This document shows positions 22,548 through 60,413 of a stretch of 64,000 nucleotides of DNA, piece by piece. Position 1 is the first letter of the stretch, and every line of letters begins with the position of its first letter. This stretch comes from Chloroflexota bacterium (GTDB lineage Bacteria > Chloroflexota > Dormibacteria > Dormibacterales > Dormibacteraceae). The translations under genes and the position numbers were made by a program. The stretch is taken from positions 248,001 to 312,000 of the forward strand of contig VBIW01000035.1 of NCBI GenBank assembly GCA_005880915.1, given 5' to 3'. A model generated the notes under the pieces. It searched no databases. It was given only the letters and a program-made list of their open reading frames with translations, and was not told the origin of the DNA.

Positions 22548-22557
22548 GCGACAGCCC

Positions 22558-22647
22558 ATGTGGCAGTTTGCGGTCGGCCTGCTGGTCGGGATCGCTGTCG
22601 GCGTCCTCATCATGGCAGCGCTCGTCGCCGCCGGTCGCAGACCCTAG
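22558..22647 (+). CDS. 29-residue single-pass membrane protein
   Basis: A short frame starting ATG at 22558, 10 bases after the PilZ stop. The product MWQFAVGLLVGIAVGVLIMA continues ALVAAGRRP: one membrane helix of about 21 residues with a basic end. The region upstream, GCGACAGCCC, is a poor ribosome site. Its composition and tight spacing behind the PilZ gene are the only support. Function unknown. Confidence 0.45.
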   Translation: MWQFAVGLLVGIAVGVLIMAALVAAGRRP

Positions 22648-22649
22648 CC

Positions 22650-22668
22650 GTCCCAGAACGACCGGGAC
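22650..22668. promoter_or_regulatory. GTCCC-N9-GGGAC inverted repeat upstream of EPS genes
   Basis: GTCCC (22650-22654) and GGGAC (22664-22668) form an inverted repeat just before TTGACT (22671-22676), a possible -35. The same boxes recur upstream of three other EPS or pilus transcription units in this window. Confidence 0.45.
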
Positions 22669-22754
22669 AATTGACTTCATCTCGGCCAATCGACGAGCGG
22701 CGACATGTATGGAAATGCCCATTCAAATCGTGACGGTCGACCGCTTACTTTTCA

Positions 22755-23441
22755 TTGCACAAGAAGGTGCAGCGAGCAGAGCAAATCAACCACCGCGACG
22801 CGAGCCTGGGGCTGCCTCAGTCCGTCGACAGGCTTTTTCGCTACGAGACCACGCTCAAACGCCTGCTCGACCTCGTGCTCGCCGGCCTGGGGCTCCTTGG
22901 GACATTGCCGCTGTGGCTGGTGATCGTCATTGCGATCAAACTTGATTCCTCTGGCCCGGCGATCTTCGTCCAGGACCGCGTGGGGATCCACGGCCGCCGC
23001 TTCCGCTTTTACAAGTTCCGCTCGATGTACGCCGATGCCGAGCACCGGATCGAGGAGCTCCGGTCGAGCAATGAAGTCTCGGGGCCGGTCTTCAAGATGC
23101 GGAGCGACCCACGCGTGACCAGGGTGGGCCTCCTTCTCCGCCGCACAAGCCTCGACGAGCTGCCGCAGCTCATCAACGTGCTCAAAGGGGAGATGAGCCT
23201 CGTCGGACCGCGGCCGCCCCTCCCCAAAGAGGTGGCGCAGTACAGCGCGAGCGATATGGTCCGGCTCAGCGTGAAACCAGGCCTCACCTGCCTGTGGCAG
23301 GTCAGCGGGCGCTCGAACGTGAGCTTCGAGCAGTGGATGGATTTCGACCGCGAGTACGTCCACAACCTGTCATTCGGGCTGGACGTGATGATCCTGTTCC
23401 GCACCGTCGGGACAGTGCTCAGCATGCGGGGCGCGTACTGA
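22755..23441 (+). CDS. Polyisoprenyl-phosphate sugar-phosphate transferase (EPS initiating enzyme)
   Basis: A 228-residue bacterial sugar transferase of the WcaJ/WbaP C-terminal type. It starts with a membrane helix (LKRLLDLVLAGLGLLGTLPL) followed by the catalytic part: GPAIFVQDRVGIHGRRFRFY, KFRSMYADAE, RRTSLDELPQLINVLKGEMS, LVGPRPPLPKE and KPGLTCLWQVSGRS. The family puts the first sugar phosphate onto undecaprenyl phosphate at the inner face of the membrane. It lacks the extra N-terminal helices of long homologues. It is the first gene of an operon with the next two glycosyltransferases and is thus a likely entry point for repeat-unit synthesis. TTG 22755 or GTG 22767 is the start. Confidence 0.93.
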   Translation: MHKKVQRAEQINHRDASLGLPQSVDRLFRYETTLKRLLDLVLAGLGLLGTLPLWLVIVIAIKLDSSGPAIFVQDRVGIHGRRFRFYKFRSMYADAEHRIEELRSSNEVSGPVFKMRSDPRVTRVGLLLRRTSLDELPQLINVLKGEMSLVGPRPPLPKEVAQYSASDMVRLSVKPGLTCLWQVSGRSNVSFEQWMDFDREYVHNLSFGLDVMILFRTVGTVLSMRGAY

Positions 23442-30424: not shown

Positions 30425-31556
30425 CGACGATTCCTCCTGTCAGGCCTGTGGTGTGGCGGAAGTCGCGGTCGAGCGCAAAGGTGGCCGCGTCGAGATGCAC
30501 CAGCGTGGTGTCTATCGAGTTGGCCGTCGCGATGAGCTGATTTGAATAGACCGGTTTGGAGGCGGGCTTGGCGAGGCCGGACTGCTCGGCAGCGCTCATG
30601 TAGCGCTGCCAGCGTGGCCTTTCGTGGAGCCCCCATGCCATGCCGCGACGGCGGCCGGACGAATAGACGGACGATGCGACTGCAAGCGAGTCCACGGCCG
30701 CTTGCGGCGAGAGCGTTTCGGCGAGCCCGGGCGCGGACCGATACGTGATCTGGGCTGCGCCACGAGGATTCTCGGCCGCGAACTCGAGTGCCAGGACGAG
30801 CGCCTGCAGGAAGCGATTCAGGCCGTCGATCTCGAGAGCGGTTCTGTGCTCGAGGCCGACGACGGCGTACGAGTGCGCCGGCAGCTGCGACCACCGATCG
30901 CCGACAAAGTGAGTCAGGTGGCGGCCGGCGTCGGTGTGGGCAAGACCGCGCCACGAAAGCGCCGCATCGGTCACACCGTCCGCCGCGAACTCCAACCAAC
31001 GATCCCGGGCGACGACGAGCGTGACCACGCGCGGGTTGACACCTGCCTCAACCAGGAGCGGATCGACAATCGCCTTCCAGCTCTCGTCGCCGATCGCTAT
31101 GGAGGCGCCTTCGAGGTCGCGGGGTCGCCTCACACGCCCTCCCCTGTGCAGGGCGAAGCCGAAAACACTTCCGGCGCAAAGCTGGAAGATCGAAGTCGGG
31201 TTCAGCCCGCGGTCGGCCATCGACAGCAGCTCGGCAGGCGACACAAATGTCACGGCGGAGTCGGCGCCGGCGCCACCGGGAGAGGGCTCGCGCTGAGCGA
31301 CGATGCTCAGGTCGACACCCAGCTGTTTCAAATACCCGCGTTCGAAGGCGACCCAGATCGGGTAGTCGTCCACGCTGGCGAGCGTTCCCCGCGACGGCAT
31401 CCATGTGAGCGCGACCCGGTCACGTTTCGGGGCGACGAGGAACATGTTCGCGGCGCCGAGACCCGCGGTCGTGGCGAGGCTCCAGCCCAGGAAGCTTCGC
31501 CGGGTCAGAGTACGGGCCAAAGGTGACCAGTCGGCGCTCTTCGAGACAGCCGTCAA
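30417..31556 (-). CDS. Tat-exported NMT1/SsuA-type substrate-binding protein
   Basis: A 379-residue protein with a twin-arginine signal, LTRRSFLGWSLATTAGLGAA (residues about 17-36). The mature part has the periplasmic-binding fold of NMT1/THI5 and SsuA proteins: VDDYPIWVAFERGYLKQLGV, VTFVSPAELLSMADRGL and IAIGDESWKAIVDPLLVEAG. Relatives bind thiamine precursors, alkanesulfonates or nitrate. No ABC permease or ATPase gene is adjacent; instead three unfamiliar genes follow in overlap. It could be an orphan receptor, or its fold may have been reused in a surface assembly. Confidence 0.82.
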   Translation of the reverse strand: MTAVSKSADWSPLARTLTRRSFLGWSLATTAGLGAANMFLVAPKRDRVALTWMPSRGTLASVDDYPIWVAFERGYLKQLGVDLSIVAQREPSPGGAGADSAVTFVSPAELLSMADRGLNPTSIFQLCAGSVFGFALHRGGRVRRPRDLEGASIAIGDESWKAIVDPLLVEAGVNPRVVTLVVARDRWLEFAADGVTDAALSWRGLAHTDAGRHLTHFVGDRWSQLPAHSYAVVGLEHRTALEIDGLNRFLQALVLALEFAAENPRGAAQITYRSAPGLAETLSPQAAVDSLAVASSVYSSGRRRGMAWGLHERPRWQRYMSAAEQSGLAKPASKPVYSNQLIATANSIDTTLVHLDAATFALDRDFRHTTGLTGGIVDG

Positions 31557-31644
31557 CAGGCGCTTCCCTCGCGCATCACGCCATCGACCCTAAAGGACGC
31601 CGGGCGCTGCAACCATAGGCACCTTGTCCTGCACCGTCCGGGGC

Positions 31645-31699
31645 GTCCCGGGTTGGGTCAGGGACGTTTCGTAGTGGGCGCGGGACCCGAACGTGTCCC
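31645..31699. promoter_or_regulatory. Two GGGAC/GTCCC inverted repeats upstream of a GT operon
   Basis: GTCCC (31645-31649) with GGGAC (31661-31665), and GGGAC (31682-31686) with GTCCC (31695-31699), form two dyads 46 bases or more before the GTG at 31745. They lie in a 188-base gap between divergent transcription units and resemble the boxes before 22755, 51462 and 58084. Confidence 0.5.
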
Positions 31700-31744
31700 A
31701 AAACGCCTCTCGCGGAAATCGGCCGGCCGGCGCACAGTCTGATC

Positions 31745-51462: not shown

Positions 51463-51554
51463 AGGTAGATCTCCTTTGCGGCCTGGGGGCTGGCCGGCGA
51501 TGCGTCCACACATGGATTGAGACAGCCCGGCGCACCCGATTCAATCGGCGGCCC

Positions 51555-51626
51555 GGGACCGACCATGGGCACCTGTATCGGGACACCTGGGCTCCAGTCT
51601 CGGCACCGCCTGGGAGAAGGGGGACA
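51555..51626. promoter_or_regulatory. Three GGGAC boxes upstream of the comA operon
   Basis: GGGAC occurs at 51555-51559, 51580-51584 and 51621-51625, all in the same orientation, in the 290-base gap between comA and the divergent surface-protein gene. Two continue as GGGACA, the form seen upstream of 58084. The same gap has the 10-bp palindrome GCGTTAACGC (51697-51706). No convincing -10/-35 pair was found on either strand. Confidence 0.4.
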
Positions 51627-51752
51627 TCTGGCATACTTTTTGGGGCGCGGGTATTTACATCGGTTTACAGCCGGCCGCAAGTAAGTTGATGAAGCTGCGT
51701 TAACGCTGACGTTTAGGCCTCAGCTACGGACTCCACACTTCCGGAGGTTCAC

Positions 51753-53324
51753 ATGCGACGTTTGTTGGCCTGGGCCGCGACCGCGGCTTCGATCGGTCTG
51801 GTGGCGATACCTGCGGTGCAGCCGGTGCCGGCTTCCGCCGCGACGACTTCCGCCTTCAGCTTCAACTGGTCAGGTGGTGCGAGCGCCCCCGTGACGTGGA
51901 ACGGCGACGGTTCGCCGAGCACGTGGGACGTCCTCACGCATGCGCGGGGGCCGGGCGACGCGATGCAGCCCACGGTCGCCCAGCACGGCGCGGACTGCAG
52001 CCCCCCACCCGCCACGCACGTGATCACCACTCTGTCTGACAGCGTTTTCATCTGCCGCAACCACGTGATGACCTCGGTCACCGACCGTGGATATGGGGCC
52101 GACGTGCTCACTCCGGACCACATGGTCGACTTCGCGAGCGGCGAGAGCGTCCTCTCGTTCTCGGTCTCCACTCTGCACAATGACGCTCGCGACTACTTCG
52201 ACATCTGGATCACACCGTTTGCCAGCAACCTGATGGTCCCTCTGACCGATGCGGTTGACGTCCAGGGACCGCCACAGAACGCAATCAGGGTGCGTGATTG
52301 CTTTTGCGGCAACAACACAGACGTCTTCACAGCCAGCGTCTTCAACAACTTCGCAGAGAGCCCGCTGCCCACTGCTTCCGGCACCCCGCTGCAGTCGCTG
52401 CTGCCGCCGAGCGCCGTGACCCGCACCGGATTCGAGCTTCACCTTTCCGCGAACCACATCCGATTTGGCGTTCCGCAGGCGGGCCTGTGGTGGATCGACG
52501 CGGCGGCCAACATTCCGTTCAGCCGTGGTGTCGTGCAGCTGATCCACCACTCATATGACGCGTGCAAAGACCAGACCACGACCATGGCCAATCCATGCGT
52601 CGCGGACACCTGGCATTGGTCGAACTTCGCGATCTCTCAGTCGGTGCCGTTCACGATCATCAACGGCTCGCCGCGGTCCGCCAACCCCGGGGCGACGACC
52701 ATCCATTTCCCGGCCCCGGCGCCGGCCAACGCGTTTCTTCGGTTCGAGGCCGTAAGCGGCGGGCTGCAGCTCAGCTTCGACGGCGGCCACTCGTTCCAGG
52801 CGCCAAGCCGGCAGCCGATCATCGGCGACCACGGCAACATTCACGCCGACCACTTCACGCCGTACTTCACGCCGGTTCCAGCCGGCACGACGTCGGTCGT
52901 TGTCTCAGGCCAGAACTGGTACGGCGGCCAGTGGTGGCTCCGTGACCCGTCGATCTGGGCGGCCCAGGGCACCTCGCCGGTCGTCCAGCCGCCGGCCGGC
53001 AATCCGCCGACCAACCCACCCACGAGCGCGCCGACCAACCCTCCGACCCACCCTCCGACCAACCCTCCAACCTCGCATCCGACGAACCCTCCCACCGGCA
53101 ACCCCGGGTCGGGGTCACCCGGCGGAAGTGGCAGCGGTGAGGGGAGTGGCGGCGGTCAGAGCAGCGAGGGCGCTTCGACGACACCTGTCGAGAAGGTGAC
53201 GGAGTTCGTCGCCAAGCTGGATGCCGCGGTCAACCCGACACACGAACCGGCTATCAACGTGATCCTCGTGGGGCTCCTTCTGGCGGCCGTCTGGGCCGTG
53301 CTCCGCGTGATTCGCAGCAGCTAG
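51753..53324 (+). CDS. Secreted membrane-anchored surface protein with Pro/Thr stalk
   Basis: A 523-residue exported protein. Signal peptide: MRRLLAWAATAASIGLVAIP through PVPASA. Residues about 30-410 form a beta-rich globular domain with paired Cys (ADCSPPP, FICRN, RVRDCFCGNN), suggesting disulfides. A stalk of NPPT-type repeats covers about residues 413-450, then a Gly/Ser linker, and a C-terminal helix (INVILVGLLLAAVWAVLRVI) with a short basic end anchors it. CGGAGG lies 6 bases before the ATG. It is divergent from comA and ends before a strong shared hairpin. The family is not recognised; a role at the EPS surface is an inference. Confidence 0.82.
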   Translation: MRRLLAWAATAASIGLVAIPAVQPVPASAATTSAFSFNWSGGASAPVTWNGDGSPSTWDVLTHARGPGDAMQPTVAQHGADCSPPPATHVITTLSDSVFICRNHVMTSVTDRGYGADVLTPDHMVDFASGESVLSFSVSTLHNDARDYFDIWITPFASNLMVPLTDAVDVQGPPQNAIRVRDCFCGNNTDVFTASVFNNFAESPLPTASGTPLQSLLPPSAVTRTGFELHLSANHIRFGVPQAGLWWIDAAANIPFSRGVVQLIHHSYDACKDQTTTMANPCVADTWHWSNFAISQSVPFTIINGSPRSANPGATTIHFPAPAPANAFLRFEAVSGGLQLSFDGGHSFQAPSRQPIIGDHGNIHADHFTPYFTPVPAGTTSVVVSGQNWYGGQWWLRDPSIWAAQGTSPVVQPPAGNPPTNPPTSAPTNPPTHPPTNPPTSHPTNPPTGNPGSGSPGGSGSGEGSGGGQSSEGASTTPVEKVTEFVAKLDAAVNPTHEPAINVILVGLLLAAVWAVLRVIRSS

Positions 53325-56126: not shown

Positions 56127-56873
56127 TCAGAGCAGGCGCCGCAACGACGAGGGAGTCTTCGGGTTGTAGTCGTTGAGAACAACTCCCGCAACGCGCTCAC
56201 GACCGAGAAGGAACATCACCTTCTCGAGGTCATCCACCATCGTTCGCCCATAGCGCGCGATCACGAGGATCTTTTCGGCAAGCCGGGACGCAAGTGAGCT
56301 GTAGGCGATGTTCAACATGGGGGGGAGGTCGATGACTATGTTCGGAAAGCTGGCGCGGAACTTGTCGATCAGGTCGCTGTTGGTGAGGCGGAACACGAGA
56401 CGCGTCGGATCGGGTCCGGGATCACCCGCGGGCAGCACGAATGCGTTTTCCAGCGGAGCGGCCCGCACGAGGCGGAGCTGATTCAAGCCTTCGAGCCAGC
56501 CGGCGAGCCCGGGTCCGCCCTTGAGGCCGAACACCTCTTCGAACCCGACGCTGCTTGCGAAGTCCGTCTCAACCAGGAGCGTGGGTTCGGCCGTGTCCGC
56601 GGCCATCGCGACCGCGATCCCGATTGCGATCGACGTCTTTCCCTCGCCATGCACGGCGCTCGTGATCCCAAGGACGCGGCGCACCTGGCCTTCGCGCTCT
56701 TCAAACGGCACCGCGAGATACGCCTGGCGGCACCGATCGATGAACCAGGGCGGCAGGCTGATCGGCCTCGTCCGCTCGCGGCCGATATCGGCGAACCCGG
56801 GCGGCACGGGCCTCGGCTTGAGCGCGGCGGAAATTGCCTCGTCGACATCCTGGTCGGTCATCGCGTCCGCCAT
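56127..56873 (-). CDS. CpsD/CapB-type P-loop ATPase (BY-kinase-like)
   Basis: A 248-residue cytoplasmic ATPase. Walker A is ITSAVHGEGKTSIAIGIAVA, the Walker A' region is TLLVETDFASS, and Walker B is IVIDLPPML. It starts in a TGATG overlap with the chain-length gene, the usual CpsC/CpsD pairing. The C-terminus ends SLRRLL and lacks the tyrosine cluster by which BY-kinases phosphorylate themselves, so it may act as an ATPase switch rather than a tyrosine kinase. It would control polymer length and export. Confidence 0.88.
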   Translation of the reverse strand: MADAMTDQDVDEAISAALKPRPVPPGFADIGRERTRPISLPPWFIDRCRQAYLAVPFEEREGQVRRVLGITSAVHGEGKTSIAIGIAVAMAADTAEPTLLVETDFASSVGFEEVFGLKGGPGLAGWLEGLNQLRLVRAAPLENAFVLPAGDPGPDPTRLVFRLTNSDLIDKFRASFPNIVIDLPPMLNIAYSSLASRLAEKILVIARYGRTMVDDLEKVMFLLGRERVAGVVLNDYNPKTPSSLRRLL

Positions 56874-57823
56874 CACGCAGCGTCTGCCGAGAGGCTTCCG
56901 ATGGTGGTCACGACGCGCACGCCGAGCCGGCTCTCGATCTCCTTCGGATTGCGGGTCGTGCGATCGATCCAGCCCAGGAAGACGAGGTACGCGATCCCTG
57001 GCAGCGCCGCGGCGGCGGCCAGCGCGATCGCGTACTTCTTGGTCACCGATGTGAAGCGTCCGCCACTGGTCTTGGGCGGATCGACAGTTCGGACCGCGGT
57101 CTGGTCGATCTCGGCGGCCGCGTCCTTGGAGAACTGAATGCTCTGCAGCTTGTCCTGCAGATCGTTGACGCTGGTCTGCGCCAGTTGCACGTCGCTCTCG
57201 AGCCGATCCAGCCGCGGATCCGGAGTCCTGACGATGGTTTGCTGGATCGGATGCGCCACCAGGTAGGCATTGAGCGCGTCGCTGGCGGTCTGCAGGCGCT
57301 CCTTCGCCTGCTGCAGCTGCGCGGTGTAGAACTGGCTGGCGACATCGGCCTGCTGCTGCTCGGTACGGATCAGCCAATCTCGGTGCAGAGAGATCGTGGT
57401 CGTCAGGACCTGGATGCAAACGTTTGCCCGTCGGCATTCGACTTTGATCGTGACCAGATGCGAGCCTGAGGAGCTGATGACCAGGCTGGTCCTCACGTCG
57501 CTCAAAACCTGGTCGCGCTCCGACATGCTGCCCACCGCGTGGCTGTCGAGCAGGCCCTGCCCGAGCTGGGAGTAGAAGGTATCGGTCTGCGTCAGCTGGT
57601 CGAGCGAGTCGACTGCGTTCTGCGCCGGGGTCAGGTACTGGTTCCAGCCGTTTGCCGTGGATACGTTCCCGATATAAGCAGGGTTGTCCACCCAGAGCTG
57701 GGCGGAGCCGTCCTTACCCTGGAAGATCAGCAGAGCTGCGCCACCCGCTACCAAGGGCAGCGCAAGGCAGAGCAGGGCAAACCTGATCCAGTGGCGGAAG
57801 AGAACCTCGAGGTACTTGAACAT
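56873..57823 (-). CDS. Wzz/CpsC-type chain-length determinant
   Basis: A 316-residue protein with two membrane helices: FALLCLALPLVAGGAALLIF (residues about 15-34) and YAIALAAAAALPGIAYLVFL (about 269-288). Between them is an extracytoplasmic domain with a long coiled-coil stretch (AQLQQAKERLQTASDALNAY; LDRLESDVQLAQTSVNDLQD). A short cytoplasmic tail ends it. This is the layout of polysaccharide co-polymerases, which work with the Wzy polymerase and the downstream ATPase. It is the first gene of the operon and is divergent from pilT. Confidence 0.9.
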   Translation of the reverse strand: MFKYLEVLFRHWIRFALLCLALPLVAGGAALLIFQGKDGSAQLWVDNPAYIGNVSTANGWNQYLTPAQNAVDSLDQLTQTDTFYSQLGQGLLDSHAVGSMSERDQVLSDVRTSLVISSSGSHLVTIKVECRRANVCIQVLTTTISLHRDWLIRTEQQQADVASQFYTAQLQQAKERLQTASDALNAYLVAHPIQQTIVRTPDPRLDRLESDVQLAQTSVNDLQDKLQSIQFSKDAAAEIDQTAVRTVDPPKTSGGRFTSVTKKYAIALAAAAALPGIAYLVFLGWIDRTTRNPKEIESRLGVRVVTTIGSLSADAA

Positions 57824-57884
57824 ATGTGGGGTTTGTCGTAGCTGATGCTAGGGGCGGGGACGGCATGCCTGGAATAAGGCAGGC

Positions 57885-58025
57885 GTCCCACGGCGCGTGG
57901 GACATCGCGGATCTGTGCGCATCATTCAGGACTACGCGGCAACCGTTCCGGGACATCGCCCACGGAGCGTCCAAACGCCGGGACAAGTGTCCCGATACGG
58001 TGCGAATCTCGGGACAGAAGTCCCG
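57885..58025. promoter_or_regulatory. Cluster of GGGAC/GTCCC inverted repeats between EPS and pilT
   Basis: Three perfect dyads lie within 141 bases: GTCCCAC-N5-GTGGGAC (57885-57903), CGGGACA-N2-TGTCCCG (57979-57994) and CGGGAC-N4-GTCCCG (58010-58025). A further single GGGACA starts at 57950. The gap separates the divergent cpsC-like and pilT genes, so one protein binding here could control both EPS and pili. Confidence 0.65.
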
Positions 58026-58083
58026 GTGGTTTGCCGACTCCACTCAGGCGGTCGGCAGAAAGCGGTGTTACGGTGAAATCGCC

Positions 58084-59187
58084 GTGACCCTGTTTGAAGC
58101 ACTCAATCGAATGCTGGACGAGGCCGGGTCCGACCTGCTCCTCAGCGTGGGAGCGTCAGCGCGCATCCGCAAGGACGGCGTATTGGTCAGCCTCGACAGC
58201 ACAGCGCCAGCCCTTCAGCCGAAGGATGTGAACGCGATGCTCAGCGAGGTGCTCGACGCAGCCCAGCTGAAAGCGCTCAGCCAGGGCCGCAACGTCGACT
58301 TCGCGTTCACCTTTGAGGATCGCGTGCGCGTACGCGGCAATGCTTACCTGCAGAAGGGAACCCCGGCCGCAGCGTTTCGCTCGCTGCCCTTGCAAATCCC
58401 GACCTTCGAGCAGCTTGGGGTCCCGGAAGCCATCTACACGATGATCGGCCGCAACCAGGGACTGATCCTGGTGACTGGCCCGACCGGTTCCGGAAAGTCG
58501 ACGACCCTGGCAGCGATGATCGACTACGTCAACCGGACTCGCGCCTGTCACATCCTGACAGTGGAAGACCCGATCGAGTACGTGCACCATCACGGCCTTG
58601 CCCTGGTCGACCAGCGGCAGGTCGGTATCGACACGAGGAGCTTTGCCGACGCCCTGCGATCCGCCTTCCGGGAAGACCCCGACGTGATCCTCATCGGCGA
58701 GATGCGCGATACCGAGACGATGCGGGCAGCGCTCACGATCGCTGAGACCGGGCACCTGGTCCTCGCGACGCTGCACACGAACGACGCGCCGCAGGCCGTC
58801 AACCGGATCGTGGACAGCTTCGCCGGCGCGCAGCAGCAGCAGGTGCGCGCCCAGCTGGCGACCTGCCTGGCCGGGGTCATCTACCAGCAGCTGATCCCGG
58901 CCGTCGGGGGAGGGAGGGTCGCCGCCTTCGAGATGCTTGTGGCCAATGTGGCCGTTCGATCAATGATCAAGGACGGCAAGACGGATCAGATCCGAAGCGT
59001 GTTGCTGACCAGCTTGCGGCAGGGCTCGCAGACTCTCGAGCGTTCATTGAACCAGCTCCTGCGCGCGGGATTGGTCACCGAGCGCGACGCCCGCGCGCAT
59101 TCCCTCTACCCGGGCGAGATCCAGGTCATCTCTACCGCGCCCGCGCCCTCGCGCTCGCCGCGTAGCGGTGCGCGGCAAGACTCGTAA
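58084..59187 (+). CDS. pilT: Type IV pilus retraction ATPase PilT
   Basis: A 367-residue PilT-type secretion ATPase. Walker A is LVTGPTGSGKSTTLAAMIDY near residue 131; the Asp box is HILTVEDPIEYVHHH; Walker B is DPDVILIGEMRDTETMRAAL; the His box is ETGHLVLATLHTNDAPQAVN. The start is probably the GTG at 58084 (VTLFEALNRM), which gives normal PilT length. The frame is open to 57826, but that part is the regulatory repeat cluster and looks non-coding. PilT powers pilus retraction and twitching. Its 3' end overlaps the convergent prepilin peptidase fragment. Confidence 0.93.
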   Translation: MTLFEALNRMLDEAGSDLLLSVGASARIRKDGVLVSLDSTAPALQPKDVNAMLSEVLDAAQLKALSQGRNVDFAFTFEDRVRVRGNAYLQKGTPAAAFRSLPLQIPTFEQLGVPEAIYTMIGRNQGLILVTGPTGSGKSTTLAAMIDYVNRTRACHILTVEDPIEYVHHHGLALVDQRQVGIDTRSFADALRSAFREDPDVILIGEMRDTETMRAALTIAETGHLVLATLHTNDAPQAVNRIVDSFAGAQQQQVRAQLATCLAGVIYQQLIPAVGGGRVAAFEMLVANVAVRSMIKDGKTDQIRSVLLTSLRQGSQTLERSLNQLLRAGLVTERDARAHSLYPGEIQVISTAPAPSRSPRSGARQDS

Positions 59188-59545
59188 CCGCCAGCCCCCA
59201 ACCAGCGACCAGGCACAGGCCCGCGGCCGCGCCTGGCCACAACCCGAACGAGATGATGGGCGCCACCATGAGCGCCCCCGCCACCGCTTCCACCAGTGGC
59301 GCCGAGACGCCGATCCGGCAGCCGCATGTTGCGCACCGGCCCCTGCGAAGCCAGTAACCGAGCACGGGTAGGAGATCAATGGCGTTGAGCTCCCGGTCGC
59401 AGGCCACGCAGTGGGAGCGTGGCCTGACGATGGACTCGCCCCTGGGGAGTCGATCGGCCACCAGGTTGATGAAGCTGCCCAGCACGAGCCCGACAAAAGT
59501 TAGATATGCAGTCAGGAATGGAGCGACGATGGCGATCGGGATCAT
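59132..59545 (-). CDS. Prepilin peptidase, N-terminal domain only
   Basis: A 137-residue protein matching only the N-terminal half of PilD-type peptidases. GLVLGSFINLVADRLPRGES is followed by the two zinc-type CxxC pairs (HCVACDRE and RCATCGCR) and LLPVLGYWLRRG. Two more hydrophobic segments follow, then a basic end (RYAASARARAR). The second half of PilD, which carries the two catalytic aspartates of the A24 peptidase, is missing. Full-length enzymes have about 250-290 residues. It overlaps the convergent pilT by 56 bases. It is either a methyltransferase-only relic or half of a split enzyme. Confidence 0.8.
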   Translation of the reverse strand: MIPIAIVAPFLTAYLTFVGLVLGSFINLVADRLPRGESIVRPRSHCVACDRELNAIDLLPVLGYWLRRGRCATCGCRIGVSAPLVEAVAGALMVAPIISFGLWPGAAAGLCLVAGWGLAVTSLAAHRYAASARARAR

Positions 59546-59611: not shown

Positions 59612-60079
59612 TTACAGCGTGTGGCAGCCGGCGCTCGGGTCAGTCGCGCTGGCACCAGGAGCCAGGGCCTTGGACTTGTCGCTGTAGATGTTCGTGATCT
59701 TCCCGTTCTTGTCCCATGAGTAATAGAACTGGGTGGAGCCGTTGCGTGTGAAGTTGGGATTTGTCGCTGACGGGGCGGTGTTGTAAAGGCCCGAACCGTT
59801 GAAGAGGACGATCGACATGTCGTTCTTGTCGTCCACCGCGGTGATCGTGTCGGTGTTGTTGGCGGCCATGAAAGCGTCAAGGGCTGCCTGGACTGTCTTG
59901 TACTCGGTGTTGCAGGCCTGGACGTTCGAGTTGGTGGTGAGGCCGACCAGGCTGAGGGTGACGATCGCGGCCAGGATGCCAAGGATTGTCACGACGACGA
60001 GCAACTCGATCAAAGTAAAGCCCTGCTGACCCTTGCGTCCCCGCAAGTTCTTGTTCAACCAACCGTGGAAACCTGCCAT
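59612..60079 (-). CDS. Type IV major pilin-like protein
   Basis: A 155-residue prepilin. The leader (about 20 residues, basic) ends in a Gly before FTLIELLVVVTILGILAAIV, with the conserved Glu at mature position 5. The soluble part is short and has two Cys (QACNTEY and AGCHTL), probably a disulfide-closed D-region. AAGGGGG lies 7 bases before the ATG. It sits alone after a 163-base gap, as expected for a highly expressed major pilin. Confidence 0.93.
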   Translation of the reverse strand: MAGFHGWLNKNLRGRKGQQGFTLIELLVVVTILGILAAIVTLSLVGLTTNSNVQACNTEYKTVQAALDAFMAANNTDTITAVDDKNDMSIVLFNGSGLYNTAPSATNPNFTRNGSTQFYYSWDKNGKITNIYSDKSKALAPGASATDPSAGCHTL

Positions 60080-60242
60080 TAGATCGCCCCCTTGTACGGC
60101 TGCCGCAATTCCCGACGCGGCACCGCTGTTTGCTGACTTGACTGGCTCAGTCTGGGTGCGAGTCGGCGAAACTTGAATAGAGGGAGTGGCCCACTGGGTA
60201 GGCGGCTGTCCCTATTCGGTCTGGGCCTGTGGGCGGAGCCGG

Positions 60243-60413
60243 CTAGTGCAGTCCCAGGCCCACCGTGACCGCCGCGGCCCCGAGGAGCAGAATCGAGCCG
60301 AACAGGGAGGCGCAACCCCTGCGCCGAACGGCTTGCCGCCGGGTTTCGCCGACCAGGTTGAGGTCCGCGAGGGGACGACGTCGCTCCTGTTGCTCTGGTC
60401 GCTTCCGCTTCAT
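60243..60413 (-). CDS. Mini-PilN-like membrane protein (56 residues)
   Basis: A 56-residue protein: a basic cytoplasmic part with RRRPLADLNLVGETRRQAVR, then one membrane helix (LFGSILLLGAAAVTVGLGL). The LNLV stretch is in the place of the PilN N-terminal INLLP motif, which binds PilM, and the helix follows as in PilN. The entire periplasmic domain of PilN is absent. It starts in a TGATG overlap with pilM, exactly where pilN is expected, with GGAGGAG just upstream. Confidence 0.65.
   Translation of the reverse strand: MKRKRPEQQERRRPLADLNLVGETRRQAVRRRGCASLFGSILLLGAAAVTVGLGLH

Follow-up and report, generated by a model that had tools for sequence, protein, structure and literature searches.

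Conserved GGGAC/GTCCC boxes upstream of pilT in a Chloroflexota genome and a probable regulon of pilus genes

The intergenic gap between a cpsC-like gene and a divergent pilT gene of a Chloroflexota bacterium is crowded with GGGAC/GTCCC boxes, raising the question of whether these are regulatory sites and, if so, which genes share them and which protein reads them. The locus belongs to a stretch of 64,000 nucleotides (the window), part of the 418-kb contig C81 of genome G000 (4.13 Mb, 228 contigs), whose source is an uncultured Chloroflexota lineage, probably of soil. Boxes were counted in the promoter-type intergenic set of this genome (334 regions, 80 kb), and the 250-300 bp upstream of pilT were compared among 14 genomes of the same family, most of them incomplete. 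Gene starts were taken from a simple gene caller and BLAST, and all P values ignore phylogeny, so that independence is overstated for these related genomes.

The gap spans 260 bp and, with its flanking genes, presents the following features.

56873 to 57823, minus strand: cpsC-like gene, divergent from pilT (open reading frame; relatives in G021, G023 and G001)
57885 to 57903, unstranded: outward dyad GTCCC-N9-GGGAC (GTCCCACG-GCG-CGTGGGAC) of putative EPS-type geometry, 5' of cpsC
57950 to 57955, plus strand: extra half-site GGGACA (GGGACATCGCCCA), read from the sequence
57979 to 57994, plus strand: distal pilT dyad CGGGACAAGTGTCCCG, 31 bp 5' of the proximal dyad
58010 to 58025, plus strand: proximal pilT dyad CGGGACAGAAGTCCCG, 73 bp 5' of the pilT start
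58043 to 58051, plus strand: predicted -10-like position of pilT, weak here (CTCAGGCGG, CTCAGG), placed from 37 sites whose AT content peaks at +34/+35 relative to GGGACA
58084 to 59187, plus strand: pilT-like pilus retraction ATPase, 367 aa (Pfam T2SSE 6e-46; orthologues present)

The name cpsC is that of an earlier note on this DNA, and the protein itself returned zero Pfam matches. Eight half-sites were found in the gap (57857, 57885, 57899, 57950, 57980, 57989, 58011 and 58020), the GGGAC at 57857 being an extra one absent from the list in that note, and the perfect 16-bp CGGGACN4GTCCCG dyads, 31 bp apart, are the sole two copies in the genome. The enrichment that had been claimed for this gap was borne out, as it ranks first of the 334 intergenic regions with P about 1e-6. 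The boxes named elsewhere in the window are all present as well (22650/22664, 31645/31661/31682/31695 and 51555/51580/51621). Among their regions, 31521-31744 carries 4 boxes (P 0.003, rank 3 of 334), while 51463-51815 with 3 boxes (P 0.06) and 22548-22754 with 2 boxes (P 0.10) are unremarkable by count. The background had been set too dense at one box per about 250 bases, since 157 half-sites were counted in the 64-kb window (1 per 408) and 200 in the 80 kb of intergenic DNA (1 per 400). Equal density in unrelated intergenic regions, which would have told against the boxes, was not what the counts gave, with no enrichment of GGGAC between genes across the 334 regions (200 seen vs 232 expected). 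A loose search for GGGAC-N0..20-GTCCC over the whole window stayed at the chance level (3 seen, 3.45 expected), and conservation is therefore the real test. The 4-bp spacing accounts for 6 of 23 GGGAC-Nx-GTCCC pairs and for 4 of the 7 intergenic pairs, and the boxes are significant because clustering, the 4-bp spacing and conservation come together.

Comparison of the regions upstream of pilT revealed GGGACA as the first of 2080 6-mers, with 29 occurrences vs 2.28 expected in 12 of the 14 family genomes (P 3e-22, phylogeny ignored). The proximal box lies 69-76 bp 5' of the pilT start in 9 of the 14, and most of those nine have a second box 21-31 bp farther upstream, usually on the same strand. 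The recurrence of the dyads in relatives, on which the earlier note had made its proposal depend, was found at pilT: G008 carries two GGGACAAATGTCCC dyads 29 bp apart despite changed spacer and flanks, and G007 carries two that are wider apart. The gene 5' of pilT varies among genomes and the box stays, so the box travels with pilT. The pilT of G005 has no box, its pilB having aGGACA only, and no matching box pattern was found upstream of pilT in other families of the class. At the level of sequence comparison, the GGGAC/GTCCC boxes at pilT are thus confirmed as real, conserved regulatory sites.

Beyond pilT, the main targets were found to be pilB and pilA, together with a Tad pilus operon located elsewhere in the genome; the earlier note names none of these. 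In nine genomes GGGACA is located 69-71 bp 5' of the pilB start, and in a tenth the distance is 79 bp. The Tad operon (from the RDD gene-cpaB onward) is preceded by GGGACAAATGTCCC in G008, G002 and G010 and by GGGACGAATGTCCC in G000. The pilA features in the window are given below.

60207 to 60212, minus strand: pilA promoter box GGGACA, 133 bp 5' of the pilin start, the second-best matrix match in 937 kb
60251 to 60255, minus strand: second pilA half-site GGGAC, 43 bp 5' of the first, a pair that G008 and G007 share at identical spacing
59612 to 60079, minus strand: pilA-like pilin, 155 aa (Pfam N_methyl 1e-10)

The conserved pilA footprint consists of (G/C)GGAC(A/T/C), followed by CGCCCA-N6-TGGGCCA and then CTCTATTCAGG. 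A 137-aa protein encoded between pilA and pilT (59132-59545, minus strand) resembles only the N-terminal part of prepilin peptidase, without the C-terminal peptidase part, and relatives keep it at 125-134 aa. Alignment of 37 pilA, pilB, pilT and Tad sites disclosed an AT-rich, -10-like element with its highest AT content (0.84/0.92) 34-35 bp past the leading G of the box; its position would put the box between about -45 and -32, a usual location for an activator site. At pilA and pilB the GGGAC is accompanied by G-N-CC at the right phase only.

These promoters also bear on the reading that the boxes act in RNA, as hairpins in the pilT or cpsC leader that would control translation or termination. 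The segment 57965-58040 has an unusually stable fold (-38.8 kcal/mol, z -4.5), as inverted repeats must, whereas pilA, pilB and many pilT promoters have an imperfect dyad or a direct repeat without a long stem and the -10-like element stands 3' of the box. The gap gave neither an Rfam match nor a terminator; control through RNA is considered very improbable.

A matrix built from relatives only, with G000 held out, was scanned over 937 kb of the 4.13 Mb with reversed sequence as the control, and its top four matches fell at pilB (31.8), pilA (22.4), pilT (18.5) and Tad (18.0), against a control maximum of 15.6. A survey of 16 genomes of genus g1 uncovered nine perfect GGGACANNTGTCCC dyads, eight of which adjoin pilus genes, including the Tad operons of G008, G002 and G010. 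The perfect dyads of sister genus g2 (G017, G030, G061 and G063-G065) were rejected as support, being a dispersed hairpin repeat where inspected. In that genus, an intergenic repeat of ~80 bp, with the hairpin GCGGAGGGGACATCTGTCCCCTCCGC at its end, is dispersed in several copies per genome (L288-L293, L295-L297), and it appears unrelated to the pilus boxes. An origin of the boxes by chance clustering, or as copies of a dispersed repeat between genes, would fit both the occurrence of the same dyad word inside the g2 repeat and the chance-level dyad search, but scarcely the first ranks among regions and among 6-mers, the fixed position and the held-out matrix, and G000 lacks a g2-type repeat at these sites; this explanation is regarded as close to negligible.

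As for the reader of the box, a DosR-like regulator was predicted from the DosR box and then sought, and the pilus cluster to the right of the window was found to encode the following proteins.

C81:314903-315604 (L137 4903-5604): RRa, NarL/FixJ response regulator, directly 5' of pilB
C81:316467-317201: RRc, response regulator in the pilus cluster
C81:317429-318142: HisKA_3 kinase in the pilus cluster
C81:318139-318795: RRb, NarL/FixJ response regulator next to the HisKA_3 kinase

RRb combines Pfam Response_reg (4e-28) and GerE (7e-23) domains, and RRa has a Pfam GerE match with a receiver judged by eye from the sequence. Among the 25 GerE (LuxR-type) HTHs of the genome, the KTVRNH helix occurs in RRa and RRb only; its DevR counterpart, by alignment with PDB 3c3w, is EKTVKNYV, and in RRb the helix reads ISEKTVRNH with hardly any variation across 12 genomes of the family. 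The RRb receiver keeps VLMD(I/V/L/M)KMP throughout, with a phosphorylatable Asp, and most RRa orthologues have FCELRAEP with Glu at the phosphorylation site, possibly a constitutive phosphomimic. All family members with pilT boxes contain RRb, and in G002/G010 a kinase-regulator pair with the same helix adjoins the Tad dyad. From this neighbourhood and the helix we infer the identity of the regulator, and RRb and RRa are the best candidate readers of the box.

The boxes might instead be true sites read by another protein (RRc, an unlinked NarL-type regulator or one of another family) while RRb and RRa regulate something else. Several observations speak for this assignment, as the two candidates were singled out only by proximity and helix similarity, G019 keeps the boxes with RRa missing, and in G005, where the pilT box is gone, all three of RRb, RRa and RRc persist, about 30 kb away from pilB. 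RRb also occurs in G020, G029 and G032 without a pilT match and is therefore not pilus-specific. Reading by another protein is countered by the restriction of the DevR-like helix to RRa and RRb, and RRc was rejected as the regulator since it has another helix and is patchy, missing from G017, G021 and G023, all with pilT boxes or near-boxes. A different reader is on balance judged unlikely.

Three further observations concern the promoters of the regulators. Autoregulation of the kinase-RRb operon was considered from GGACATGTCCC in G000, G012 and G008, yet GGGACA is only weakly enriched there (P 0.015, rank 77) and the candidate was dropped. A second, different control site, the conserved inverted repeat AAATGGTCATTTCAGACCATTGACC, was noticed 5' of the same operon (L137 7229-7428 and orthologues). 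The element TCCCATTAC, which may be an atypical -10 or sigma element, is common to the RRa and pilB promoters, with CCATTA in 9 of 9 RRa promoters.

Taken together, pilT, pilA, pilB and the Tad operon probably constitute a small surface-appendage regulon, whose dyads would be activator sites read by the DosR/DevR-LiaR-type (NarL/FixJ) regulator of the pilus cluster. In the proposed mechanism, the neighbouring HisKA_3 kinase would phosphorylate the regulator and thereby switch it on; a dimer would occupy GGGACANNTGTCCC just 5' of the -35 region or overlapping with it, one or more further dimers would bind the tandem boxes 2-4 helical turns upstream, and the proximal and upstream dimers together would recruit RNA polymerase. 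The spacing of the tandem boxes is 21-31 bp in most pilT promoters and 43 bp in that of pilA, with the AT peak about 33-35 bp 3' of the box. DevR targets are reported to have tandem sites bound cooperatively, the start-proximal one overlapping the -35 region (PMC3029386). We infer activation rather than repression, and likewise the signal; on the activator view, the pilT start would lie near 58055 and the pilA start just 3' of CTATTCAGG. Counting against this reading are the weak pilT -10 of G000 (CTCAGG), the lack of any sigma-70 promoter match in the gap, the Glu of the RRa receiver, an inner base pair unlike that of DosR, the presence of RRb in genomes that gave no pilT match, and G005 with its regulators but no pilT box.

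Whether the same boxes extend to the exopolysaccharide (EPS) genes was approached through the sites listed below.

22650 to 22669, plus strand: outward dyad GTCCC-N9-GGGACA, 5' of the EPS sugar transferase
22755 to 23441, plus strand: undecaprenyl-phosphate sugar transferase for EPS priming (Pfam Bac_transf 1e-66; orthologues in G012, G007, G008 and G005)
31645 to 31699, unstranded: cluster of four half-sites (31645/31661/31682/31695) before a glycosyltransferase, a candidate only (P 0.003)
51621 to 51626, plus strand: GGGACA half-site before a 523-aa gene, a candidate only (matrix 13.5, below the control maximum)

The sugar-transferase promoters keep GTCCY-N9/10-GGGACA in 5 of 5 orthologues with a variable interior, and the outward GTCCY-N9/10-GGGAC precedes cpsC in all 4 genomes where cpsC and pilT diverge (G000, G001, G021 and G023). 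The outward pattern came top of 6400 inverted-repeat patterns, in 9 of 9 regions vs 3 of the 334 intergenic regions of G000 (the gaps under study included), in an exhaustive test with a post hoc choice on related sequences. The result is thus suggestive. Also 5' of the sugar transferase (22690-22760 and orthologues), the block GTATKGAAATGCCCATTCAAATCGTGACC is strongly conserved, more so than the GGGAC box.

The boxes common to pilus and EPS units in the earlier note held in part, with the half-site retained at pilT, cpsC and the sugar transferase, while no orthologues of the genes behind 31645 and 51555 were found in the relatives searched and the box at 51621 is at noise. Half-sites also occur at 51555 and 51580, and the 31645 cluster is absent from the matrix matches listed. 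One regulator for all four sites, as had been suggested, is possible but too broad a claim: the outward N9-10 geometry at EPS genes differs from the inward N4 geometry at pilus genes, and the same protein therefore need not bind. The same regulator might act at EPS promoters via GTCCC-N9/10-GGGAC. An extended scheme, in which one kinase with a phosphorylatable RRb and a Glu-phosphomimic RRa would read one half-site in two geometries, inward N4 for type IV/Tad pili and outward N9-10 for EPS (cpsC and the priming sugar transferase), is quite doubtful; if it were true, geometry would choose between pilus-based motility or adhesion and matrix production. The comparison suggests that pilus and matrix genes have the GGGAC half-site in common.

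The analysis yields a testable regulon for type IV and Tad pili in uncultured soil Chloroflexota, with a box, a promoter geometry, and a candidate kinase and regulators. No earlier description of pilus regulation in this lineage was found in the open-access papers searched. DosR/LiaR-type sites are known above all from dormancy and envelope stress, and the pilus boxes suggest the reuse of such a DNA site for surface appendages.

Among known systems, the closest solved relatives of RRb are VraR/LiaR (5hev, 7ve6 and 4gvp), which match better than DevR/DosR (3c3w); LiaR/VraR are known for envelope stress in Firmicutes, in contrast to the pili here. The inward pilus form GGGACA-NN-TGTCCC resembles the DosR/DevR box, which in Mycobacterium tuberculosis is TTSGGGACTWWAGTCCCSAA (PMC2275270), in its core GGGAC-N4-GTCCC (57980 and 58011 in the window, twice in G008, and in G007). 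Further likenesses are the tandem boxes, with the proximal one predicted to lie near or over -35, and the NarL/FixJ regulator with a K..(K/R)N recognition helix, as Lys179, Lys182 and Asn183, the base contacts of DosR (PMC4082495), align with K, R and N of RRb. On the other hand, the inner T-W-W-A and the flanking TTS/SAA of the DosR box are lacking here: the spacers are AAGT, AGAA, AAAT and ACAT, the flanks vary, and the inner pair is A..T where DosR has T..A. Pilus genes take the place of dormancy genes as targets, and the adjacent kinase is a short HisKA_3 protein, in which no GAF domain was found, rather than a heme/GAF DosS-type one. OsdR of Streptomyces coelicolor, a DevR orthologue, recognizes the related 16-bp palindrome AGGGCCGATCGGCCCT (PMC5069765), with the half-site GGGCC instead of GGGAC. 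In Pseudomonas aeruginosa, the NarL/LuxR-family two-component system PprA-PprB is situated inside the Tad locus and activates the Tad operons (PMC3510237), differing from the present case in phylum and in acting mainly on type IVb Flp pili, CupE and BapA.
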